This document shows positions 17,060-27,542 of a stretch of DNA of 34,105 bases, in pieces (within the stretch, counting starts at the first letter, position 1; every line of letters begins with the position of its first letter). The DNA is from Patescibacteria group bacterium (GTDB taxonomy: Bacteria; Patescibacteriota; Minisyncoccia; Moranbacterales; GWC2-37-73), in assembly GCA_022709545.1 (NCBI GenBank), contig JAKLIP010000005.1:1-34105 (forward strand), written 5' to 3'. Made by a program: the position numbers and the translations under genes. The notes beneath the pieces are model-generated. The model did no database searches. It was not told the DNA's origin and saw nothing but the letters and a program-made list of their open reading frames with translations.

Positions 17060-18463
17060 ATGAATAACGCGGAACTTTGGCAGGCAGCTTTGGGAGAGAT
17101 AGAACTGTCCATTTCAAAAGCCAACTTCAGCACATGGTTCAAAAACACAACCATACTTTCCAATGAAAATGGAAGGGTTGTTATTGGTGTGCCCAATGGA
17201 TTTGCCAAAGAATGGCTGGAAAATAAATATAACACCTACATCTTTAAGGCGCTGAGAAACTTCCAAAATGAAATTCGAGAAATCAGCTGCGTGATCTACA
17301 ACGCTGATCAAATGCCGCCACAGGAAACAAAAAAAATAGATTCTGTTGTTTCAGTATCGCCGGATAAAAATAAAGAGCCGTTGCCGGGCGTTGTTTTTCA
17401 ACCTAATTTTACGCAGCAGCAACCGCAAGAAGTTTTTGATAACAATATAAATTCACGTTACACTTTTGAAAATTTCATCATCGGCGAAAATAATGAATTA
17501 GCGCGCGCAGCATGCTATGCTGTTTCCCAAAACTTGGGCAAAATATATAATCCGCTGTTTATTTATGGCGGCGTTGGCTTGGGAAAAACTCATTTGCTTC
17601 AATCCATAGGCAATGAAGTCTTGAAACATGATCCCGCAAAAAAAATAAAATATATAACTTCCGAGCGCTTTGCTAATGAGCTTATCAACTCGATTCGCAA
17701 TCAAACTGTCAATGATTTCAAAGCCGCCTACCAAGCCATAGACCTTCTTATTATCGATGATGTGCAGTTTTTAGCGGGCAAAGAAAAAACCCAAAATGAA
17801 TTTTTCCACATCTTTAATGCGCTTTATCAAATAAACAAACAGATTGTCATCAGCAGTGATCGTCCGCCCAAGGCGATTGCAACCTTGGAAGAAAGATTGC
17901 GCTCGCGTTTTGAAGGCGGAATGATTGCCGACATTGGCAAACCCGATTTGGAAACCCGCATTGCGATTTTGAAAACCAAATCCGCCGAAAAAAACTTCAA
18001 CATTGATGAAGAAGCCATTATATACATAGCGGAAAACATTAAAAGCAATATTCGTGAATTGGAAGGCGCGCTCAACCGCATCATCGCCGAATGTGAATTC
18101 AACAAAAAAATGCCTACGCTTAAATTTGTCCAGCAAGCTTTATCGGAAATAATTTCCAGCGGAAAAAAGAAAGGAGTTCAGCCGCAACATGTTATTGTCA
18201 CCATTTCCCAATATTTCAATATCTCCAACAAAGAACTTTTGGAAAAGGGACGCAAGAAAGAAATTGCCTATGCGCGTCATCTGGCAATGTATATTATGCG
18301 CAGCGAACTCAATATTTCATATCCAAGCATCGGCAATCATTTTGGCGGACGTGATCATACAACTGCCCTGCATGCTTTTGAAAAAATCAGCAAAGACATG
18401 GAAATTAATGAAAAGGTCAGAGAAGATGTGACAAAACTAAAAGAATTAGTTTACGCCATCTAA
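17060..18463 (+). CDS. dnaA: Chromosomal replication initiator DnaA
   Basis: This 467-residue protein has all four DnaA domains. Domain I (1-80) begins LWQAALGEIELSISKANFSTWF. A variable Gln/Pro-rich linker follows (about 85-130). The AAA+ domain has Walker A GGVGLGKT (170-177) and Walker B LLIIDD (229-234). The C-terminal helix-turn-helix carries the DnaA signature GGRDHTTALHA. DnaA-ATP binds 9-base boxes at oriC, melts the DNA and loads the helicase. The ATG has no Shine-Dalgarno sequence. It diverges from rpmH across the likely origin and is followed by dnaN after 55 bases. Confidence 0.97.
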   Translation: MNNAELWQAALGEIELSISKANFSTWFKNTTILSNENGRVVIGVPNGFAKEWLENKYNTYIFKALRNFQNEIREISCVIYNADQMPPQETKKIDSVVSVSPDKNKEPLPGVVFQPNFTQQQPQEVFDNNINSRYTFENFIIGENNELARAACYAVSQNLGKIYNPLFIYGGVGLGKTHLLQSIGNEVLKHDPAKKIKYITSERFANELINSIRNQTVNDFKAAYQAIDLLIIDDVQFLAGKEKTQNEFFHIFNALYQINKQIVISSDRPPKAIATLEERLRSRFEGGMIADIGKPDLETRIAILKTKSAEKNFNIDEEAIIYIAENIKSNIRELEGALNRIIAECEFNKKMPTLKFVQQALSEIISSGKKKGVQPQHVIVTISQYFNISNKELLEKGRKKEIAYARHLAMYIMRSELNISYPSIGNHFGGRDHTTALHAFEKISKDMEINEKVREDVTKLKELVYAI

Positions 18464-18518
18464 ATAAATTTAATAAAAGTAAAATTATAGAAAATTAATC
18501 AGCTTAAAATAAGCCCAT

Positions 18519-19667
18519 ATGAAACTAACTTGTACTCACGAAAACCTTAAAAAAGCTGTTTATAGTACCGAAAGAGTGGTTGGGAAGCAGATAACTTTGC
18601 CTATTTTGGAAAATATCTTGCTTCAGACCGACCATGGAATGCTAAAAATATCAGCTACTAATCTGGAAATTGGGGTTTTCTTGAAAATCGGGGCTAAAAT
18701 TGAAGAAGAGGGTGAAATAACCGTGCCAGCCCGCCTGCTTAGCAATTTTGTTAATAATTTGGGAGCTGAAAGCACAGTATCTTTGTCTGTTATTGATCAG
18801 ACGCTGCATATTGAAAGTGGCTCATCTAAGGCTCAAATAAAGGGTCTTTCGGCTCAGGATTTCCCGATAATTCCGGAAATGGAGGGTGATTTCCTTTTTT
18901 CACTGTCAGCTCAAGAGGTCAAAGAAGCTATTCCAAGACTGGCTATTTGTGTTTCGCCTGATTCAACCCGTCCAGAACTTTCCGGAATAAACATGCTTTT
19001 GCAAAAAATCGAAGTGCGGATGGCGGCTACTGATAGTTTTAGGCTTGCTGAAGCCATTCTAGTCCCAAAAACAGAAAACGAGAGAAATCTGGACATCTTT
19101 ATCGAGAAGACAAATTCCATAATTATTCCCCTTAATGCCGTTTCGGAAGTTTTCCGGGTTATCGGCAATGATACCCAGGAAATAAAGGTGGGCATAGAAG
19201 AAAGTCAGATATTTTTCCAAGTGGACAACGTGAGGATAGTTTCTCGGCTTATTAACGGCAAATATCCGGAATATCGCCAAATTATTCCCCAAAGTTTCGC
19301 AACCAAGGTAGTTTTGGAAAAAGACAGTGCTTTGCGGGCGGTTAAAATTTCCGGAATTTTTGCCAGCAACAAGACGGGAGAAGTAAAATTTACCGCGGAT
19401 GACAAGAAAAACACAGTTACAGTTCAATCCAGAGCGGAGGAAGTTGGAGAAAATAGCACAATTTTGGAGACCGAGATCACTGGTCCGGCTCAGGAAGCAA
19501 TTTTCAATCCGCGCTATATGGCGGACGGAATTCAAGCTGTTTCCGGTCCTAAACTGCTCCTGCTGATGAACAGCGGATCTTCGGCGGCTGTGCTTCGGAT
19601 GGCGCAGGGCGAAAAAAATGAAGAAGTGCCGACTTATACATATATCATAATGCCGATAAAGAATTAA
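18519..19667 (+). CDS. dnaN: DNA polymerase III beta subunit (sliding clamp)
   Basis: The 382-residue length is normal for DnaN with its three clamp domains. It begins MKLTCTHENLKKAVYSTERVVG, has the characteristic TLPILENILLQ, and ends with a conserved ...TYIIMPIKN-type C-terminus like the family's MPMRL. The clamp encircles DNA and tethers polymerase and other proteins. Its position directly after dnaA is the usual arrangement. Confidence 0.96.
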   Translation: MKLTCTHENLKKAVYSTERVVGKQITLPILENILLQTDHGMLKISATNLEIGVFLKIGAKIEEEGEITVPARLLSNFVNNLGAESTVSLSVIDQTLHIESGSSKAQIKGLSAQDFPIIPEMEGDFLFSLSAQEVKEAIPRLAICVSPDSTRPELSGINMLLQKIEVRMAATDSFRLAEAILVPKTENERNLDIFIEKTNSIIIPLNAVSEVFRVIGNDTQEIKVGIEESQIFFQVDNVRIVSRLINGKYPEYRQIIPQSFATKVVLEKDSALRAVKISGIFASNKTGEVKFTADDKKNTVTVQSRAEEVGENSTILETEITGPAQEAIFNPRYMADGIQAVSGPKLLLLMNSGSSAAVLRMAQGEKNEEVPTYTYIIMPIKN

Positions 19668-19732
19668 GGTTCTTTTAAACAAATATTTTTAGGAAGCTCA
19701 AATAAATCAACAAAAAACGAAAGGAGTATTAT

Positions 19733-20032
19733 ATGAAAAAATTGTTCCTTGGTTTTTGGTTCTGGCAAAAAATTGCTTTGAGACATTCTTGGCTGGGCAA
19801 AATAAAAAGATTAATTTGGAATAGAAGCATTAAGCTTCAATGGAATCGTCTTTGGATAAGAAAAGATGAGTTTCATAAATCATTGAATTGGGACAGTGAG
19901 GCTGTTTTGGGAATAAGCCAAGAACAGAGAAAGATATATGTTGATGATTTGGTAAAACGTCGGCATATTGCTCACGAACGTGATTTAATGAAAAAAAGCC
20001 CAGCATTTCGTGTTATGGTAAACAATCGTTAG
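19733..20032 (+). CDS. Small basic, Trp-rich protein of unknown function
   Basis: This 99-residue protein has a Shine-Dalgarno sequence (AAAGGAG, about 10 bases before ATG), one of the few good ones in the window, which supports it as a real gene. The N-terminal half is unusually rich in tryptophan, lysine and arginine (FWFWQKIALRHSWLGKIKRL); the C-terminal half is charged and probably helical. I do not recognise the family. It sits between dnaN and the DciA-like gene and is followed by a GC-rich hairpin. Confidence 0.6.
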   Translation: MKKLFLGFWFWQKIALRHSWLGKIKRLIWNRSIKLQWNRLWIRKDEFHKSLNWDSEAVLGISQEQRKIYVDDLVKRRHIAHERDLMKKSPAFRVMVNNR

Positions 20033-20044
20033 CAGAGCTTCTAG

Positions 20045-20067
20045 GGGGATGATCAAAAACCATCCCC
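20045..20067 (+). terminator. GC-rich hairpin after the small Trp-rich gene
   Basis: GGGGATG (20045-20051) pairs with CATCCCC (20061-20067) across a 9-base loop. There is no U-run, so it may be a processing or stability hairpin instead of a true terminator. Confidence 0.4.
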
Positions 20068-20100
20068 GCTTCCTAAAAGTATTTGTTTGAATATTCTATT

Positions 20101-20385
20101 ATGAAAAAAATCGGAAGCCTGCTGGACAGGAGAAAATTGTCTAAGAGGATAAACATTGACCAAGAAACTATTTGCTATATTTTCAGGCAAATTATCAAGG
20201 AGGAATATGGCAAGCAAGGCGCTGAGAACATAGTGCCGGTTTTTTTTAAAGATAAAAAAATATTTGTGAAAACCGCAGGATTGAATTGGGCCAGCGAAAT
20301 TTTGACAAACAAAAAACAGATCATCAAAAAAGTGAATGAACAACTTGGCGGAGAAGAAATTGTGGATCTGGAAATGTCGCAATAG
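20101..20385 (+). CDS. DUF721/DciA-like protein (putative replicative helicase loader)
   Basis: This 94-residue protein has the DUF721-type core VPVFFKDKKIFVKTAGLNWASEI followed by a helix with KKQIIKKVNEQLG, matching the pattern of short beta strands then W-A-x-E-L and L-N-x-x-L-G in DciA. DciA recruits the DnaB helicase in bacteria without DnaC or DnaI. I chose the ATG at 20101 over a TTG at 20083. No Shine-Dalgarno sequence is seen. Location near dnaA and dnaN fits a replication role. It is immediately followed by the tRNA-Pro promoter. Assignment rests on pattern only. Confidence 0.5.
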   Translation: MKKIGSLLDRRKLSKRINIDQETICYIFRQIIKEEYGKQGAENIVPVFFKDKKIFVKTAGLNWASEILTNKKQIIKKVNEQLGGEEIVDLEMSQ

Positions 20386-20388
20386 CAA

Positions 20389-20417
20389 TTGACTCGGGAA
20401 TGTTTATGGTATAAAAT
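20389..20417 (+). promoter_or_regulatory. Putative tRNA-Pro promoter
   Basis: TTGACT (20389-20394) and TAAAAT (20412-20417) are separated by 17 bases. The tRNA starts 23 bases after the -10. Confidence 0.6.
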
Positions 20418-20439
20418 AAGCATTAGTTTGAAAAAATAT

Positions 20440-20515
20440 CGGGGTGTGGTGTCAACGGCTAGCACGAGTGGTTTGGGACCATTTAGACAGGGTTCGAATC
20501 CCTGCACCCCGACCA
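20440..20515 (+). tRNA. tRNA-Pro (anticodon TGG), CCA encoded
   Basis: The acceptor arms CGGGGTG (20440-20446) and CACCCCG (20505-20511) pair fully. The anticodon stem AGTGG/CCATT encloses the loop TTTGGGA, giving anticodon TGG. The T arm CAGGG-TTCGAAT-CCCTG (20488-20504) is perfect. Discriminator A is followed by an encoded CCA. The 3' part is overlapped on the opposite strand by the recombinase ORF. Confidence 0.95.
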
Positions 20516-22108
20516 GTTGAGACGAACAGAGGCAAGAGCCTCTGTTTTTGTTTTATTCAAAGGTAGTTTATGCAGTTCTAACCTTTCATATTCTGCTTTT
20601 AACGCAGGATAACCATTTTCAATTGGCACAAGCCATTCATTGGCTTGAATAGTGAGTTTTCCATCTAAAATTATCGGGTGCGAACCTAATCCCATTAAAA
20701 TTTCTTTTTTCTTTTGCAAATCACCAGTTAAAAACTCTTTGTGAGCATAGGTCGCAAAGGTAAAAGTTTTTTCCGTAAGCTCTAGCCAGTTTTCTGCCCT
20801 GTTTTCTGTCTCCCTCAATTGTTCTTTTATTTTTAGAATATCATTCTGAAGCGTTTCTTTTTCTTTTAAAAACTGTTCATCATCAATCAGCATACGATAT
20901 CTCATTTTTGTAAGCTCATCCAAATTATTTTGTTTTTCTGTTAAGGTTTTATGTTGCATTTCGTAAATTCTGGCTCTGCATTCAATCTCATTGTCGTTTT
21001 TACTATTTAAATCCTCTAATGCCCATTCCAAAAATTCAGGCAAGATAGAAAGTTTACTAATCTCCCGTTCAATTTGAAGCTCTAAATCTTCTTTTCGTAT
21101 AGCTTTTCTTTGCGAACAATTTAAATCTCGCTTTTTTCTAGTGCAGTGATAGTAAGTAAATTCTTTTATCTTACCAGTGCTTCTAATAATTTTTCTTTTA
21201 GTTTCTGCTGTATGCACACAACCGCATTCACCGCAACGGATAAGTCCAGTAAAAGCAAACTCGTGTTTCTTTGGTCTTGGCTTTCCTTTTCTTCCTAATA
21301 ATATTTGCACTCGGTCAAACTCTTCCAATGAAATCATAGCTTCGTGTTTACCTTGATATTCTTTGCCACGACAAGAAATAATTCCAGTATAAAAAATATT
21401 AGTAAACATTCTATAAATACTGCTTCTTGCAAGCTCCTTCCCGCCGTGTTTTTTGTATTTTCTTGTGCGATATCCCCATTGTTTATTTGCTATATTCAAT
21501 ATTTTAGGTGGGGTATAACTTCCAGTAAGCATCAAATCAAACATTTTGCGAATAAGATTAAAGCGTTCCTCATCTTTTATGATAGTTCTGCTTGCTGGGT
21601 CATTAAGATATCCCTCTGGCGGTAAGCTTGGAAGCCAGCCATCATTACGCTTTTTCTCATTACCTCTTTTTACATTTTTGCTAAGGTCTAATATGTATTG
21701 ATTAGCCATTCCACTTTCAACACTGAAGAGCAGAACATTATCATCTGGAAGAAATTGCCTATCTATTGTTTGAATTGATTTCATTATCCCTTGCTGAAGC
21801 ATCCAACTAATTTTTCCGCTATCAATCGGATTTCTTGATAAACGATTTATTTGCCAGCATAAAATTCCGTTTGCTTCTCCATTTTCAATTCTTTCCATCA
21901 TTTCATCAAAGATTGGTCGGTTGTTTGGTTTCTTTGCTGACTTTGCTTCAGTATAGATTTTCTTAATATCCAAATTTAAATCACGAGCAAGTTGCTTTAG
22001 ACGATTAACTTGGTCATCAATAGACTGAACTTGTCGGTCTTCGTTTTCCGATGATTTTCTAGCATAAAGGAAATATTTAATTTTTTTATCATTGTCATTG
22101 TTTTTCAT
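20483..22108 (-). CDS. Large serine recombinase (site-specific integrase)
   Basis: This 541-residue protein has a resolvase-type catalytic domain starting YFLYARKSSENEDRQVQSI (probable nucleophile S19), NRLSRNP (about 104-110), and a recombinase domain with PPEGYLND. A zinc ribbon (CGECGC ... YYHCTRKKRDLNC) and a long coiled-coil segment (about 380-450) follow, the order of large serine integrases. Such enzymes insert and excise elements at short att sites. The last 20 or so codons are antisense to the tRNA-Pro terminator and T arm, and the stop (20483-20485) lies inside the tRNA. The C-terminus therefore probably comes from the integration site. The start is ATG in the context AATTATATG. A pseudoknot-forming inverted repeat lies just upstream. 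Confidence 0.92.
   Translation of the reverse strand: MKNNDNDKKIKYFLYARKSSENEDRQVQSIDDQVNRLKQLARDLNLDIKKIYTEAKSAKKPNNRPIFDEMMERIENGEANGILCWQINRLSRNPIDSGKISWMLQQGIMKSIQTIDRQFLPDDNVLLFSVESGMANQYILDLSKNVKRGNEKKRNDGWLPSLPPEGYLNDPASRTIIKDEERFNLIRKMFDLMLTGSYTPPKILNIANKQWGYRTRKYKKHGGKELARSSIYRMFTNIFYTGIISCRGKEYQGKHEAMISLEEFDRVQILLGRKGKPRPKKHEFAFTGLIRCGECGCVHTAETKRKIIRSTGKIKEFTYYHCTRKKRDLNCSQRKAIRKEDLELQIEREISKLSILPEFLEWALEDLNSKNDNEIECRARIYEMQHKTLTEKQNNLDELTKMRYRMLIDDEQFLKEKETLQNDILKIKEQLRETENRAENWLELTEKTFTFATYAHKEFLTGDLQKKKEILMGLGSHPIILDGKLTIQANEWLVPIENGYPALKAEYERLELHKLPLNKTKTEALASVRLNWSGCRDSNPV
20526..20549 (+). terminator. Rho-independent terminator after tRNA-Pro
   Basis: ACAGAGGC (20526-20533) and GCCTCTGT (20538-20545) form an 8-bp stem with an AAGA loop, followed by a T-run (20545-20549) and TTTTATT. 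It lies inside the 3' end of the recombinase ORF on the other strand. Confidence 0.85.
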
Positions 22109-22140
22109 ATAATTGTGTGTACTTAAATTTATTTAATTAG

Positions 22141-22251
22141 AGATACTAAAAGGACGGTTCTGACTTGTCCAACTTTCCAAAGGATTGCTGGCAGAACCGC
22201 CCATCTAGTAAGACGATAAAATCCTTTGGTTATTGAGTTGGACAAGTATCT
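22141..22251 (-). other. Complex inverted repeat with potential pseudoknot upstream of the recombinase
   Basis: Read on the minus strand, an 11-base arm CTTGTCCAACT and a 9-base arm CCAAAGGAT pair with ATCCTTTGG and AGTTGGACAAG (plus-strand arms 22164-22174 with 22236-22246, and 22177-22185 with 22221-22229). The 35-base apical loop contains CGGTTCTG, which can pair with CAGAACCG just 3' of the stem (22192-22199 with 22155-22162), forming an H-type pseudoknot. An outer pair AGATACT/AGTATCT (22141-22147 with 22245-22251) competes with the stem base. It may be a structured RNA leader controlling recombinase expression, or a DNA recombination site. Confidence 0.75.
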
Positions 22252-22254
22252 AAA

Positions 22255-22860
22255 TTATAGCATTTTTGTGTTTTTTAGCAACGCATAATTAGAGTGGCTT
22301 TGGTTCAGAATTTTAATCATTCGCCTGTATTTTCTGGTCGGCTTCCCTGCGTAGTAATGACGCTTCAATCCTTCATTAATCTTTTCCATCTTTTCCTCCA
22401 TATCAAGCACTTTGAATACATATCTGTATTTTGATTGTCGGTTTTCATTCTTTGATTTATAGGTTAACTCATAGCAATGCCGACATCCGAAATAATCTCC
22501 GCTCTTATAAAGCACACCAACTCTTCTGCCACAGAAAACGCCATTTTTTGAAAGCGGACAAACGAACCAATATCTTTTACCGCCGTAATTGCAAGGGGAA
22601 GAAACCAGTGATGCTCTGTAATCAAAGTTCTTTTTTTCTCCATCATCTTCGGTCTGGGAATAATTGAAGCGGATATAATTTTCTCCATCCAGTATGGAAA
22701 CTGTAATGCCTATGCTGTCATTTTTTTCCGACCAGCTATTGCTCCACTGAATTCCACCAGATTTCCATCCATCCAGATAGCCATATTTTTTCAGCCACCA
22801 CATTTCAACTTTTTTCAATCTATCTGCTTCTGTTTTATTTGACCAACTCCATCTTCCCAT
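22255..22860 (-). CDS. Zinc-ribbon-like protein of unknown function
   Basis: This 201-residue protein begins MGRWSWSNKTEADRLKKVEMW. It has a beta-rich middle and a cysteine cluster: CNYGGKRYWFVCPL, then VFCGRRVGVLY and FGCRHCYELTY (about residues 112-152), suggesting a zinc ribbon. The C-terminus is basic and helical. I recall similar uncharacterised proteins in Patescibacteria but cannot name a function. There is no transposase catalytic triad. It ends 4 bases from the pseudoknot element and precedes the recombinase on the same strand, so it may be co-transcribed with, or a partner of, that element. The start is ATG in AATTATG context. Confidence 0.65.
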   Translation of the reverse strand: MGRWSWSNKTEADRLKKVEMWWLKKYGYLDGWKSGGIQWSNSWSEKNDSIGITVSILDGENYIRFNYSQTEDDGEKKNFDYRASLVSSPCNYGGKRYWFVCPLSKNGVFCGRRVGVLYKSGDYFGCRHCYELTYKSKNENRQSKYRYVFKVLDMEEKMEKINEGLKRHYYAGKPTRKYRRMIKILNQSHSNYALLKNTKML

Positions 22861-22993
22861 AATTTTTTCAAATTATTACCGAAATCATTAGAGATTGATT
22901 TCTTCTCTTGATTATATTTATGCTTTGTATTGGGCAAAATATTAATTTTCATCGTTTGCCTGTTTTTTCAATATTTTTTCCAAACGAACCCAT

Positions 22994-23515
22994 TTATTCT
23001 TCCTTGGATATTTCAACATCTACCGCTACTGGCAGAGGAATATCCTGTCCATTTCTCTGTGCCTGCAATCTTTGTAGTTCGTGCAGTGCTTTGTAAATTC
23101 CTTTCTCAATACTGGTTTCGTAACGAGTAAATTTTCCATAGGTATCATTATTTACAAAATCATAGCTGAATGCTTCTCCAAGAGTTTTTTCTTTTTCTGA
23201 AAACATCTCCTTTCTGTCATCTTCAACCATTTCACTTTCTATCTTCATAGCTCTTTTTAATCTCCAAATGTTTGCGATTATTCTATCTGAAAAAAGAAGC
23301 TCTATTTCATTGGCTGGTTTTAATTCACCTCTAATCTTTTTTTCTAACTCCAAAAGCTCCTCTTCACTCTCATCTCTTAATAGAACACCTCCGCTTAAAA
23401 GCCCGTGCTTCAATGCATTGTATCTGCTAATAGATTTACCTTCTTCGGTTTTAACTCCGCCCAATTTAGCATTCTCTCTGTTAGCTTCTAATTGTTTTTC
23501 TGATATTTCGCTCAT
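22994..23515 (-). CDS. Uncharacterised helical protein with KQLEANRENA-type N-terminus
   Basis: This 173-residue protein starts SEKQLEANRENAKLGGVKTEEGKS followed by RYNALKHGLLS. I recognise this N-terminal pattern from a widespread uncharacterised bacterial family often found in mobile DNA. A helical body with WRLKRAMKIE and a RYETSIEKGIYKALHELQRLQ block follows. The basic start could bind nucleic acid; no enzyme motif is seen. It is minus-strand, upstream of the zinc-ribbon gene. A palindrome array (23658-23717) and a hairpin (23533-23556) lie in its upstream region. Confidence 0.65.
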   Translation of the reverse strand: MSEISEKQLEANRENAKLGGVKTEEGKSISRYNALKHGLLSGGVLLRDESEEELLELEKKIRGELKPANEIELLFSDRIIANIWRLKRAMKIESEMVEDDRKEMFSEKEKTLGEAFSYDFVNNDTYGKFTRYETSIEKGIYKALHELQRLQAQRNGQDIPLPVAVDVEISKEE

Positions 23516-23532
23516 AGTTTTTATTAACTGTT

Positions 23533-23556
23533 CTTATACTGTTTATCAGTATCAAG
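23533..23556 (-). promoter_or_regulatory. Hairpin in the leader of the 23515 gene
   Basis: ATACTG (23536-23541) pairs with CAGTAT (23547-23552) across TTTAT. Flanking CTT/AAG extends the stem past a one-base bulge. It is a possible operator or RNA hairpin. Confidence 0.35.
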
Positions 23557-23657
23557 TCAGTCTTTTTTATAGTGTCTGAAATCTTTTCTAAAGCCATATT
23601 TTATATTTAATTTAATATAAATAATATAATTACCTTTCCTTTAGAGGAATAATATAG

Positions 23658-23717
23658 ACTATAGTAATAACTCTAGTATTTACTATAGTAGTGAGTTAAA
23701 AATCTGCTACTATAGTA
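23658..23717. promoter_or_regulatory. Array of three ACTATAGT palindromes
   Basis: ACTATAGT occurs at 23658-23665, and the longer palindrome TACTATAGTA at 23681-23690 and 23708-23717. Centres are 24 and 27 bases apart, roughly two to two and a half helical turns. Position between two minus-strand genes suggests operators for the 23515 transcript, or iterons. Confidence 0.55.
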
Positions 23718-23721
23718 AGAA

Positions 23722-24012
23722 CTATTTTTTTTCCACGATTGGAATACTAGCGTAATCATATTTTTCAATAATTTCCCTCTTTATCTTTTCAAGAAGTGAT
23801 TTTTCAAAAAGACAATATTTAAAATTTCTTTTTTGAGGAACTTGCACATTTAATGCATTGTCATACTTACTTTTCCAAACAGTGAAGCCAGAAATGGTAA
23901 AGTATTCCCCAAGCTCACCCTTGAAAGTCAAGGTAGCATTTGCAAGTAAATTTTCGTGTTGTCCTGAAGTTAGTTTTACACTTGCGGTAATCTCTACAAT
24001 GTTAATTCTCAT
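23722..24012 (-). CDS. SpoVG-like small protein
   Basis: From the ATG at 24012 the protein has 96 residues: MRINIVEITASVKLT, then NATLTFKGELGEYFTISGFTVWKS, then a VQVP-type strand, and a helical end LLEKIKREIIEKY. The strand order resembles SpoVG, a small nucleic-acid-binding regulator (compare its ASVTF...IRVI...VAMPS layout). I prefer 24012 to the ATG at 24027 because it has the AATTATATG context shared with other genes of this element. Function here is unknown; replication or expression control of the element is possible. Confidence 0.45.
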   Translation of the reverse strand: MRINIVEITASVKLTSGQHENLLANATLTFKGELGEYFTISGFTVWKSKYDNALNVQVPQKRNFKYCLFEKSLLEKIKREIIEKYDYASIPIVEKK

Positions 24013-24042
24013 ATAATTTTTATCCATTTATGATTTAGATAG

Positions 24043-24318
24043 TTAGTTGTATGCTTGATGGTTTAAAACCTGCTGGGGTTCATTTTTGCCCTCAATTCCT
24101 GTTGTCCTCAGGGGCACTGTAATGTTTTCCAGATGTGCTAAGATTGCCCTTTTTTCTTTTCTAGTATAATCATTTTTGTCCACCAGTCTTTGAAACCAGC
24201 GATGGATGGATTGACGATTAAAACCTTGTCCCTTTACTGCTTCAGAAAAACATACATAACTGCTCCAAAACGGTTTCTTTTTAGTTATGTTTTTAAATCT
24301 TCTTTCTAAGGATTTCAT
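24043..24318 (-). CDS. Small basic protein, possible helix-turn-helix, unknown function
   Basis: This 91-residue protein begins MKSLERRFKNITKKKPFWSS and contains AVKGQGFNRQSIHRWFQRLVDKNDY, whose spacing resembles a helix-turn-helix with an aromatic-rich recognition helix. The C-terminal third looks unstructured. It lies in a run of small minus-strand genes downstream of the reverse transcriptase. I do not recognise a named family; DNA binding is inferred. Confidence 0.5.
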   Translation of the reverse strand: MKSLERRFKNITKKKPFWSSYVCFSEAVKGQGFNRQSIHRWFQRLVDKNDYTRKEKRAILAHLENITVPLRTTGIEGKNEPQQVLNHQAYN

Positions 24319-24339
24319 AATTGTAATTTTGGTTAATTT

Positions 24340-24534
24340 TTAATATTCGCTATCTATCTTTTCCTGACGCTTCTTCAGTTCAAGATAGTTCTGTTTTGTC
24401 ATTGGTTTGTATATGAGTTTCACAAGACGAACAAGCCGAACACCTTTTTCAAAAGCTTCATCTCGGCTTATTTCTATGCCAAAACGATTTTTGTAAATTG
24501 TTTGGAATTTTTCAATTTGTTCGCTTGTGAACAT
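24340..24534 (-). CDS. Small protein of unknown function
   Basis: This 64-residue charged, helical protein starts MFTSEQIEKFQTIYKNRFG and contains EISRDEAFEKGVRLVRLVKLIY. I recall similar short proteins near recombinases of Patescibacteria but know no function. The ORF is tightly packed, 4 bases downstream of the DUF5659-like gene and 21 bases before the next gene, which supports it being real. Confidence 0.55.
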   Translation of the reverse strand: MFTSEQIEKFQTIYKNRFGIEISRDEAFEKGVRLVRLVKLIYKPMTKQNYLELKKRQEKIDSEY

Positions 24535-24538
24535 AAAG

Positions 24539-24832
24539 TTATTCGCTATAAATTCTATTTTTTAACATTTTTACATTGTCAAAAAATGTTCGGGCTTTTA
24601 CTTCTAATTTGTCGGCAAAATAGTCGTCCACAACCTTTTCAATTCCTAGTTCTCGGTGAAATATGAACTGCACTTTTTTAGGATTGGATTTGTCCAAAGA
24701 GACAAGCTCAAAACCCGCACTTATAATTGCGGAACTACAGCCTAAATCGTAAGTTGTCATAAAGTCCTGATAATTGTCGGAAGAAATACGACCTTGTTTC
24801 TCCGAGATGCCACTTAATTGATTTTTGGTCAT
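24539..24832 (-). CDS. DUF5659-like protein
   Basis: This 97-residue protein has a core YQDFMTTYDLGCSSAIISAG followed by FELVSLDKSNPKKVQFIF, and ends with a VKARTFFDNVKMLKNRIY helix. This matches my memory of the DUF5659 pattern (T-x-D-L-x-x-A, G-F-x-x-x, K-K-V-x-F-x-F, ending in L-K-x-x-I-Y), a domain found in phages and mobile elements with no known activity. It starts with the AATTATATG context and lies 137 bases downstream of the reverse transcriptase, separated by a terminator hairpin. Confidence 0.6.
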   Translation of the reverse strand: MTKNQLSGISEKQGRISSDNYQDFMTTYDLGCSSAIISAGFELVSLDKSNPKKVQFIFHRELGIEKVVDDYFADKLEVKARTFFDNVKMLKNRIYSE

Positions 24833-24904
24833 ATAATTTTTTGTTAATTATTATGCCCTCTAATCATTAATGGCGAATTTCACTCTAATTTTTTAAAAAC
24901 AAAA

Positions 24905-24926
24905 AACTCCCTTTATTTTGGGAGTT
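24905..24926 (-). terminator. Rho-independent terminator downstream of the reverse transcriptase
   Basis: AACTCCC (24905-24911) and GGGAGTT (24920-24926) form a 7-bp stem with an 8-base loop. The minus strand continues with a strong T-run; the plus strand also has T-runs, so it could act in both directions. Near-identical 13-base sequences (GGYGAATTTCRCT) flank it at about 24872 and 24956. Confidence 0.75.
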
Positions 24927-24969
24927 ATTTTTTGAAAAAGTTATAAATTTTTATTGGTGAATTTCGCTA

Positions 24970-27342
24970 CTATTCTTCAAACACTTCGGGAGTTTGCTTT
25001 TTTAGATATTCACTGATATCCGAATTGTTTTCATCTTCTCTGTTGTCGGATTTTGTATTTTTATCTAGCGGTGGAATTAGAGTAATTTTAATTTTGTACG
25101 AGTTCCCATTTTTTTCAGAAGATGTGTGATAAGGATAAAATGGGTCATAGTCTAGTGAAAAATAGTCCTGAAGTGATTTTGCCAAAAGTTCTTTCTGTTT
25201 CTTATACTTATCTCTTGCTTCAGGATTTTTAATGGCAAGCTCACCGTTAACTTGTGCCAATACTTTTAGAAATGTCCACGCTCCACTCGGATTAGGATTA
25301 TTACCCTTGCCAATAAAGCCCATATCTTTATAGCTAGCGTTTTCTTTGAATTGCTTTACTTGGATAAAAACATTTTCGTTATCTAAAAATTTGATTGTGA
25401 AATTTTCCCACCTTGTACCAGCAGGAAGCTTATGTGGAAATTTTTGTTTAGCTTCTAATTTTGTTGCAACAATTGCTTTTAGCCCTTCCTGTAAGCCAAT
25501 GACCTCAATTTTCAGTGGAGTTGTTGACATACCAAAAAATGGAGCGAGTTTATCTTGAGCAATTTTACCCTCATCATTGAGAAACTCATCTTTTGTTTTT
25601 GTTAGAGTTTCAGACGATTGTAGATTAAAATAAATTTTGCTAAATTCTCCCGCTATTTCCCGCTCTAAAATTGGAGTATATTTTTCTATAACGGTTTTTT
25701 CATCAACTTTCTTTTCATTAACAAGAAGCCAACCGAATAATCGGTGCAGTTTTTCAACTAGAAATATGCCCATCGTCTGAATTTCAAGCGATTTAGATTG
25801 CAGTGCTTCATAAACCAGTTCTTTTATTGCCTCGTCTTCTTCAATATCTCTTAAATAAACAGCAAAATAGTAATATGTTGCTCTTTCTCCTTCTGTTTTT
25901 GCATTTCTGATATGTCTTTTAATATCATCTAAATTAAAACCCAAGCTTGCAGAGGGGTCTCCCTTTTCTTTCATATAAGCTCTGTAAAAAAATGCCAAAG
26001 GTCTAAAAAATTTAGCTTTTGGGTCTGCTATAATCCTATCTAATTCCATTTGAAAACCAGTATGATTTTTAGCAAACAGGGGAGCTGAAAGAACCTTTAG
26101 GAGCCAGAATTTTGTCCAATCAGTAAGCGAGTTACTATGATAAGTTTTCCAAACCCTCTCATATTTTGAATGAATGATATCCTCCTTTGCCCCATAAAGA
26201 AACTTGTTTAGTTCAGAAAAGTAAAAACCTAAATATCTGCACACTAGATAAGTTAGAGAGGGTCTCATTAAAACCAAAGCTATTAGGTCATTGAGCATTT
26301 CTGTGTTTCCTAAATCTACCCCAGATTTAAGATAATATTTTAAGGCACTCATTTCTGTTTTTTTGGTATCATTTCCATTTTTTATTTTTCTTAATATAGT
26401 TGGTATCTTCTTGCCTATTCTTGCAATTTTTTGTTTAGAAGTTTCATTTAAGTTACCGTATGGATTATAAAACTTCAATTCTTCAATGCCTGATGTGTTT
26501 TTAAGTTTTTCTAATTTAGTTTTTTCATTAAGCCTTAGATTATAGCTCCTTAAAAACAATACTAATTTGTCTACTATGTGGTTTAGCGTATCGGCACTTT
26601 TTGACATTATTACTATATCATCAGCATATCGGAAGTATTCAAAATCCCCATTGCTCTTTAAGTCATCAATAAATGTATCAAGCGGATGGAGATAAGCATT
26701 TGCCAAAATGTGAGAGGCGTTAGCTCCCTGCGGAACACCGCACATAGTTGGATTTTCCGACCAGCTCTTTAATTGTTTTGATAATATTTCAAGAATTTTA
26801 GCATCATTTATTTTGAATTGTTCATTTAATACTTTTAAAAGAGTGTCTATGTGTATATTTTCATAATAAGTTTGTATATCAAATTCAACACGCCAAGTTA
26901 ATTTTTTTTCAAATGCCTCTATTTGCTTATCGCAAAAAAATACCCATTGGTTCTTGTATGGTTTGAGAAATTTTTCTTTACTAGCTATCCTGTTGCCACA
27001 ACAAAAGCTGAAAAGTTTTTTATCAATTATATTACCTAAAACGGATGGGTTAAGAAGAGCTTGGAAAATTATCCTATCAACAACTGAAAATATGCAGATA
27101 GGACGAACTCCTAAATTATCTTTTGAAGCATAAATATAGTCAGCTTTATCTGGTTGATATTTTCCTTGTCTTAGATATTCCTGAAGCGTTTCAAAAAAAT
27201 CATCGCCAAGATGAACAATTGCACTTATTGAAGGTCTCCAAATTGGGTCTAGGGGCAGGCTACTTTCATCAGTTTCATATTTTAAATATAAGAAAGCCTG
27301 TTTAAGATTTTCTTTAGAAGTAAATTTATCAAACAAATCCAT
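24970..27342 (-). CDS. Reverse transcriptase with a long C-terminal region; not a group II intron enzyme
   Basis: This 790-residue protein has an N-terminal RT domain: VRPICIFSVVDRIIFQALL (79-97), motif A VEFDIQTYYENI (D155), motif B GVPQGANASHILANAYLHPLD (202-222), and motif C FRYADDIVIMS with YADD (239-242). The catalytic aspartates are intact. After the RT core come about 480 residues: a helical region (about 330-600) and a C-terminal part (about 640-770) with GTRWENFTIKFL and a basic WTFLKVLAQVNGELAIK segment that could be a winged-helix-like domain. I see no maturase X domain, HNH nuclease or retron NAxxH element. Architecture fits the abortive-infection/defence RT groups (DRT/UG), which is inference. 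It starts with AATTATATG, has its own terminator, and lies divergently from the DUF5320 gene. Confidence 0.85.
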   Translation of the reverse strand: MDLFDKFTSKENLKQAFLYLKYETDESSLPLDPIWRPSISAIVHLGDDFFETLQEYLRQGKYQPDKADYIYASKDNLGVRPICIFSVVDRIIFQALLNPSVLGNIIDKKLFSFCCGNRIASKEKFLKPYKNQWVFFCDKQIEAFEKKLTWRVEFDIQTYYENIHIDTLLKVLNEQFKINDAKILEILSKQLKSWSENPTMCGVPQGANASHILANAYLHPLDTFIDDLKSNGDFEYFRYADDIVIMSKSADTLNHIVDKLVLFLRSYNLRLNEKTKLEKLKNTSGIEELKFYNPYGNLNETSKQKIARIGKKIPTILRKIKNGNDTKKTEMSALKYYLKSGVDLGNTEMLNDLIALVLMRPSLTYLVCRYLGFYFSELNKFLYGAKEDIIHSKYERVWKTYHSNSLTDWTKFWLLKVLSAPLFAKNHTGFQMELDRIIADPKAKFFRPLAFFYRAYMKEKGDPSASLGFNLDDIKRHIRNAKTEGERATYYYFAVYLRDIEEDEAIKELVYEALQSKSLEIQTMGIFLVEKLHRLFGWLLVNEKKVDEKTVIEKYTPILEREIAGEFSKIYFNLQSSETLTKTKDEFLNDEGKIAQDKLAPFFGMSTTPLKIEVIGLQEGLKAIVATKLEAKQKFPHKLPAGTRWENFTIKFLDNENVFIQVKQFKENASYKDMGFIGKGNNPNPSGAWTFLKVLAQVNGELAIKNPEARDKYKKQKELLAKSLQDYFSLDYDPFYPYHTSSEKNGNSYKIKITLIPPLDKNTKSDNREDENNSDISEYLKKQTPEVFEE

Positions 27343-27463
27343 ATAATTATAATAGTAATTTTCCCTTATTTTACGCCAAAACCCTCAAAAAATCAAGCTT
27401 CTGAGTGGTTTATGGACTTAGAATTTTTTATAAGATTTTTCTGGCTGAAAGAAATTACCAGCA

Positions 27464-27492
27464 TTGACAGTATTACATTATGGGTATATATT
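27464..27492 (+). promoter_or_regulatory. Strong sigma-70-like promoter of the redox/metal cassette
   Basis: TTGACA (27464-27469) and TATATT (27487-27492) are spaced by exactly 17 bases. Directly downstream, ATATATTCA-type direct repeats (about 27486-27508) could be an operator. Confidence 0.75.
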
Positions 27493-27542
27493 CATAATAT
27501 ATATTCAATTAAATAACTAATATAGAAAGGTAGGTGATAAAT

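Follow-up and report, generated by a model that had tools for sequence, protein, structure and literature searches.

Fusion of a UG-type reverse transcriptase to a conserved domain of Patescibacteria integrated elements, with a candidate cognate DNA site

Reverse transcriptases (RTs) of the UG and Abi kinds are familiar as defence enzymes encoded alone or in small operons. Class 1 enzymes carry out untemplated, protein-primed DNA synthesis, and in Class 2 DRTs template ncRNAs adjoin the RT (PMC12632851). Elsewhere in immunity, nuclease-protease pairs form exchangeable modules that unrelated systems have acquired (PMC12799240). Here, we describe an RT gene of a Patescibacteria bacterium in a window (the whole stretch of DNA analyzed) of 34,105 nucleotides. 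The gene and its parts are as follows.

24970 to 27342, minus strand: RT gene, 790 aa, with an ATG start and no internal stop (ORF, Pfam, PADLOC)
26443 to 27342, minus strand: RT fingers, palm and thumb, residues 1 to 300 (RVT_1; YADD at residues 239 to 242; solved RTs match the model)
25630 to 26445, minus strand: all-helical repeat region, residues ~300 to 571 (AlphaFold2 model of modest confidence; full-length UG19 match of a sister RT)
24973 to 25512, minus strand: C-terminal domain (CTD), residues 611 to 790, common to an element family (genome scans, profile searches)
27368 to 27396, minus strand: promoter-like site of the RT gene, TTGATT-17-TAAAAT (consensus match only)

The catalytic core is intact, as the original prediction had held. 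RVT_1 matches residues 78 to 277 (66.9 bits; cut-off, 29.6), and motif A (FDIQTYYENI, with D155), GVPQG and YADD are all present in the sequence. Likewise as predicted, domain profile searches detected no maturase or nuclease domain. No other RVT_1 match occurs in the 1.02-Mb, 17-contig genome bin.

Profile scores and the RT core tree show the enzyme to be, by sequence, a UG-type RT that is nearest to UG19, UG21 and UG23 and lies outside UG19 proper. PADLOC ranked UG19 first (162 bits), ahead of UG21 (141), UG23 (132), UG9 (120) and the generic RT profile (111), which was the top-ranking profile for all eight comparison RTs of other kinds. This ranking supports the predicted UG-type RT, which has a long C-terminal region modelled as helical and lies in an integrated element. 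The likeness to UG19, UG21 and UG23 (UG-Abi; PADLOC "DRT" models) extends to the RT order, the motifs and the modelled helical C-terminal region. However, the UG19 profile covers residues 4 to 399 only (386 of 562 positions), whereas a true UG19 member, the 702-aa RT of another Patescibacterium (L178), is matched over its full length at 511 bits; by score, the RT described here is thus not a member of UG19 proper, from which it also differs in its added 180-residue CTD and its fixed slot before a DUF5659 gene. Two sister RTs (L063/L064), 37% identical to it over residues 3 to 421, match the UG19 profile along their whole length (170 bits). In the literature searched, the myRT classification (PMC8934634) was the sole paper naming UG19 together with RTs, and no documentation of defence activity of UG19-type RTs was found.

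In the tree of the RT core, from which retron, Abi and characterised DRT rows were left out and in which several branches are long, the RT paired with L063 (support, 97/90). A branch supported at 94/92 split the UG-type rows (this RT, L063, L177 and L178) from the group II-like and DGR-like rows, the latter so called because of their length and source and not because of template repeats. The group II-like rows held together at 99/97; annotation of the tree is carried by L170 only (in part by L165, L167 and L169). Taken with the profiles, the tree (without retron or Abi rows) puts the RT domain nearer to UG profiles than to the RTs of group II introns, DGRs or retrons, so the placement that the original prediction had named as evidence against itself was not observed.

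That the RT is a remnant of a group II intron, DGR or retron is barely credible. The group II RT profile TIGR04416 does match at 116.8 bits and group II RTs are the closest among solved structures, but this score is far under the cut-off of 300, and the absence of a maturase domain and of intron RNA, together with the tree, led us to reject a group II origin. A retron origin is contradicted by the St85 retron RT profile (56.7 bits; cut-off, 235) and by the lack of an msr-msd RNA; neither intron nor retron RNA beside the RT was matched by Rfam. Missing template/variable repeats (none in 20440 to 27540) and the tree placement speak against a DGR. The AbiA and Drt4 profiles reached 62 and 36 bits, respectively.

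Other RTs were also encountered in these bacteria. About one-third of the sampled Patescibacteria genomes carry an RT, mostly of 320 to 390 aa and DGR-like by length, far from the RT at 24970 to 27342. A further divergent UG-type RT of 530 aa occurs in the class (L177/L224, G265:C58). The true UG19 gene (L178, G278:C24) stands behind a small HTH gene and adjoins a serine recombinase gene.

The 480-residue novel C-terminal region of the original prediction is real but composite, consisting of the helical repeats of residues ~300 to 571 and a separate conserved domain at 611 to 790. Structure prediction with AlphaFold2 (mean pLDDT 51, highest over the RT core) returned helices only for residues ~300 to 571, at moderate to low confidence (pLDDT mostly 40 to 74), a pattern that appears compatible with the helical repeats known from UG/Abi enzymes. 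Among the solved RTs matched in a fold search with this model were DRT9, UG15, DRT4 and Abi-P2, mostly through the RT core. The Abi RTs (AbiK, Abi-P2) and UG15/DRT4, all of Class 1, resemble the enzyme, as modelled, in combining an RT with helical repeats and in having no ncRNA seen adjoining the gene; low profile scores, weak global structural overlap and the extra CTD set it apart from them.

Searches with the CTD found no fold match in Pfam or PDB profiles, and modelled alone it reached a pLDDT of 37. Its pattern is strands-helix-helix-strands. A gene occupying the same slot in an element without the CTD (L218) has a sub-threshold Trans_reg_C match at its C-terminus (E 0.09). This order of strands and helices, the association of the CTD with a palindrome and the L218 match make a winged helix possible for the CTD, although they are suggestive only, and similarity to OmpR-type domains was not detectable with hhalign.

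Little room is left beside the gene for an RNA template. The 95 nt upstream show no excess structure (z −0.9), the 137 nt downstream hold a terminator and palindromes, and the flanks of the sister RT measure 45 and 72 nt. In the two intervals in which the original prediction had suggested looking for an ncRNA, we found the promoter-like site, the terminator and the palindromes and no obvious ncRNA. A retron-, DGR- or DRT-like ncRNA beside the RT was not detected, nor was there an Rfam match, and the two flanks lack the adjoining template ncRNA that characterizes Class 2 DRTs. The RT thus shares a UG-type core with DRT2, DRT9 and DRT10 (Class 2; PMC12632851) but differs from them in having no adjacent ncRNA; the structured RNA of the element lies 2.7 kb away and is also found in RT-less elements. 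Because no ncRNA was found and space is limited, protein-primed and/or untemplated synthesis, as in Class 1 UG/Abi enzymes, appears likelier than the use of a dedicated ncRNA template.

The CTD is not particular to the RT. When the whole RT protein was compared with 84,980 species genomes, five loci were recovered, in named Doudnabacteria, Berkelbacteria and other Patescibacteria, all matching residues 609 to 790 only (62 to 68% identity). Their N-termini differ from the RT, with TPR repeats in L006 and uncharacterised regions elsewhere. Profile searches, which recognised the domain down to ~20% identity, found it in 7 of 94 genomes sampled from the order, 12 of 383 from the class and 15 of 380 from the phylum; none was found in viral contigs. 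The CTD ends the lead gene of ~27 other Patescibacteria elements. When 26 N-termini were compared with each other, four small groups shared sequence and at least 15 were unrelated to any other. Some sub-domains are partly shared among them, and the RT part resembles none of the others. Across a Patescibacteria-wide family of integrated elements, an unchanging CTD is combined with N-terminal parts that are swapped. The extra C-terminal domain that the original prediction called unusual is real in this sense, but it is a family-wide element domain carried by many unrelated N-termini and no novelty of the RT, whose fusion to it is seen in one genome only. The arrangement recalls the nuclease-protease modules (PMC12799240) in that one constant module is joined to many unrelated partners, but here the constant part is a C-terminal domain of a mobile element and appears to have a cognate DNA site there.

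Some of the slot genes and their flanks deserve mention. The N-terminal region of L043:8612-10441 (minus strand) is common to L037, L047 and L050 and in L043 matches AbiJ_NTD3 weakly (E 0.001, short of the cut-off). In L002, L038, L040, L043, L045, L047 and L049, methyltransferase- or restriction-type genes (clusters c3, c14 and c28) lie divergently upstream of the CTD gene, a flank that is possibly defence cargo. Elements L216 to L220 have DUF5659, a structured leader RNA and the recombinase without the CTD, and their slot genes encode other proteins.

The RT gene lies at one end of an integrated element with the following features.

20440 to 20515, plus strand: tRNA-Pro (TGG), the attachment target (ARAGORN, Rfam tRNA; same sequence as the empty-site tRNA-Pro at 76/76 positions)
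20516 to 27437: integrated element, ~6.9 kb (delimited by empty site L197; right end known to some tens of bases)
20483 to 22108, minus strand: large serine recombinase, 541 aa (Resolvase, Recombinase and Zn_ribbon_recom over cut-off; 3' end inside tRNA-Pro)
22255 to 22860, minus strand: 201-aa gene, cluster c4, in 8 of the elements compared (no Pfam match)
22994 to 23515, minus strand: 173-aa gene, cluster c8, in 5 elements (cluster comparison)
23722 to 24027, minus strand: 101-aa gene (ORF; no family match)
24043 to 24318, minus strand: 91-aa gene, cluster c11, in 3 elements (cluster comparison)
24340 to 24534, minus strand: 64-aa gene, cluster c5, in 8 elements (cluster comparison)
24539 to 24832, minus strand: DUF5659 gene, 97 aa (Pfam, 34.8 bits; cut-off, 23.6), first gene of the operon leading to the recombinase

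The recombinase-bearing element that had been predicted is borne out by the large serine recombinase and by an empty site on another contig of the same bin (C10, locus L197), the two hallmarks of a serine-recombinase integrative element. Contig C10 carries dnaA, dnaN, a DciA-like gene and tRNA-Pro, followed directly by the genes found to the right of 27438; homology ends after 20515 and restarts at 27438. Serine recombinases leave no long direct repeat at the att core, and no direct repeat of at least 10 bases was present at the element ends. Of nine elements checked, eight have a recombinase gene whose 3' end runs over an opposite-strand tRNA, and each element uses a tRNA of its own (Pro, Gln, Trp, Ser, Asp, Val). 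Compared with known large-serine-recombinase elements (CcrAB- or XisF-like), the Resolvase, Recombinase and Zn-ribbon domains, the site-specific insertion and the empty site are alike, whereas the tRNA targets overlapped by the recombinase 3' end, the small genes (DUF5659, 64 aa, 91 aa) and the leader RNA are its own.

Gene order is common to the family and runs from the CTD gene through DUF5659, the 64-aa gene and variable replication genes to the serine recombinase. The DUF5659 family was found in 13 of the elements compared, including both sister-RT elements, and the lead gene of the module always adjoins DUF5659 or replication genes. The sister RT L063 occupies the same slot before a DUF5659-like gene, with no detectable CTD. 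The original prediction of a solitary gene, in the sense of plain defence cargo, did not hold, as the RT gene occupies the usual lead position of the element module, beside DUF5659 or replication genes. In the literature searched, we found no description of this family, with its DUF5659 gene, tRNA-targeted serine recombinase and pseudoknotted leader RNA.

Between the recombinase and the rest of the operon lies the structured RNA of the element.

22138 to 22249, minus strand: pseudoknotted leader RNA (z = −4.5), starting just after a TATAAT box at 22259 to 22254

Two nested helices (ACTTGTCC/GGACAAGT and CCAAAGGATT/AATCCTTTGG) are followed by a pseudoknot in which the loop GGGCGGTTCTG pairs with the downstream CAGAACCGTCC; a T run and the recombinase start come next. 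Ten elements keep these three helices and their order while differing in sequence, and in each the RNA lies immediately downstream of a −10 box. A covariance model (R1), built from two sequences with the pseudoknot pairs left out, recovered seven new loci (E < 1e-4) from 342 genomes, all seven directly before a serine recombinase. The pseudoknot that the model did not contain was restored in all seven, in several with changes on both sides (e.g., GGGCGTACTG/CAGTACGTCC). In all, the three helices are maintained through compensatory changes across 17 elements, namely the RT element and L002, L037, L040, L043, L045, L047, L050, L059, L082, L204, L205 and L207 to L211. The leader RNA has no match in Rfam and is new. 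Since it stands in elements with and without the RT or the CTD, it belongs to the recombinase, and because its final strand directly precedes the start codon, it most likely controls recombinase expression. Its presence in many elements without an RT rules it out as an RT-specific template. A role as a guide to the tRNA target was likewise rejected, as the longest stretches shared with own and foreign targets averaged 7.3 and 7.0, respectively.

The region behind the RT gene contains a terminator between two palindromes.

24953 to 24967, minus strand: palindromic site 1, GCGAAATTCACCAAT, immediately after the stop codon of the RT gene
24905 to 24926, minus strand: intrinsic terminator of the RT gene, between both palindromes
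24869 to 24883, minus strand: palindromic site 2, GTGAAATTCGCCATT (motif search, leave-one-out test)

The gene therefore has a terminator of its own (24926 to 24905), as predicted. Palindromic site 2 shares bases with the −35 hexamer of a promoter-like site for the DUF5659 operon (24876 to 24847); allowing one mismatch, its 15-mer occurs only once in the genome bin. Almost all of the 28 elements have a terminator motif at this position behind the CTD gene, with its orientation unchanged (likelihood 224 versus 84 to 91 for shuffles). Between the terminator and the next gene, a motif search given no prior input revealed a second motif, GAAATTTCGCCATT, whose core is palindromic (EM likelihood 131 versus 44 to 57 for shuffles). 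In a leave-one-out test, the palindrome exceeded the 95% point of shuffles in 23 of 28 CTD loci versus none of 6 kindred loci (elements with DUF5659 or the leader RNA but without the CTD), although the loci are related by descent and these counts are not independent trials. The palindrome claim rests on this profile test and not on a simple count of GAA-N-TTC, which is weak per locus (30 in all versus 10.6 expected). In the nearest RTs (L063/L064), the slot and the DUF5659 neighbour are kept, and neither CTD nor palindrome is detectable. This co-occurrence of CTD and palindrome suggests that the CTD binds, or reads, the palindrome.

Two other roles for these palindromes were considered. They could be recombination sites that swap N-termini onto a constant C-terminus, with the CTD serving a structural role only; the 15 or more unrelated N-termini on one CTD and their partly shared sub-domains would fit, but both palindromes lie behind the gene and not at the junction of N-terminus and CTD, and the 5' ends of CTD genes have no such palindrome in common, which makes this highly improbable. 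An invertible terminator was rejected, as the orientation of the terminator relative to the palindromes did not vary between elements, which speaks against inversion in this reading too. Distinctly improbable as well, if less so, is a replication-origin or partition module formed by the CTD and palindromes, in which the CTD would bind the element's origin and the RT part would act in replication or priming. The CTD gene adjoins primase/helicase-like and Rep-like genes in many elements and palindromes plus hairpin look like an origin, yet the palindromic site is constant whichever replication module is present and overlaps a promoter-like site, and a replication-like domain is absent from most N-termini.

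Evidence for the RT-CTD junction comes from a single contig. The genome bin is 9.6% contaminated and holds two regions with dnaA, dnaN, a DciA-like gene and tRNA-Pro (17060 to 20515 and G000:C10, i.e., L197), with dnaN 75% identical, so the contig of the RT probably derives from a second organism related to the first. The CTD of the RT is at most 67% identical to any other CTD, which makes a chimera with a known relative unlikely. At the level of sequence, the gene combines a UG-type RT with a domain of the element family that has a likely cognate DNA site.

How might such a protein work? We tentatively favor, at slightly less than an even chance, a reading of the fusion in which the CTD would bind the palindromes and control the mobility operon and the RT would serve as an exchangeable sensor or effector. 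The CTD, as a putative DNA-binding domain, would sit on the palindromes flanking the terminator and control transcription of its own gene and of the mobility operon from DUF5659 to the recombinase. The N-terminal module would set the timing, with the RT as the sensor or effector in this particular element. The polymerising state of the RT, triggered by phage or foreign nucleic acid as in other UG/DRT enzymes, may change the grip of the CTD on DNA, and the RT would also protect the host.

Defence by the RT is plausible from its UG kinship and from the restriction-type genes in sister elements. Defence could even be its only role, the CTD being borrowed for expression or autoregulation of a UG/DRT-like antiphage RT and the element gaining through protection of its host. 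A UG-type RT with helical repeats, the methyltransferase/restriction-type genes across the same slot in other elements and the one weak AbiJ_NTD3 match all speak for such plain cargo. However, the position and C-terminus of the RT gene are those of the element's own lead gene, and most N-termini in the CTD slot have no defence profile match, so that we regard it as somewhat unlikely. The more specific proposal that the polymerising state of the RT directly sets CTD binding at an excision/replication operator, such that infection or foreign nucleic acid leads to mobilisation of the element and the same CTD serves exchangeable sensors across Patescibacteria, is doubtful and to be taken as unlikely.

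Overall, an RT fused to a constant mobile-element domain with a matching DNA site would make the coupling of RT activity to transcription control testable, and ~27 natural "sensor swaps" on one CTD are offered for comparison. A Patescibacteria element family characterized by DUF5659, a tRNA-targeted serine recombinase and a pseudoknotted leader RNA is now described.
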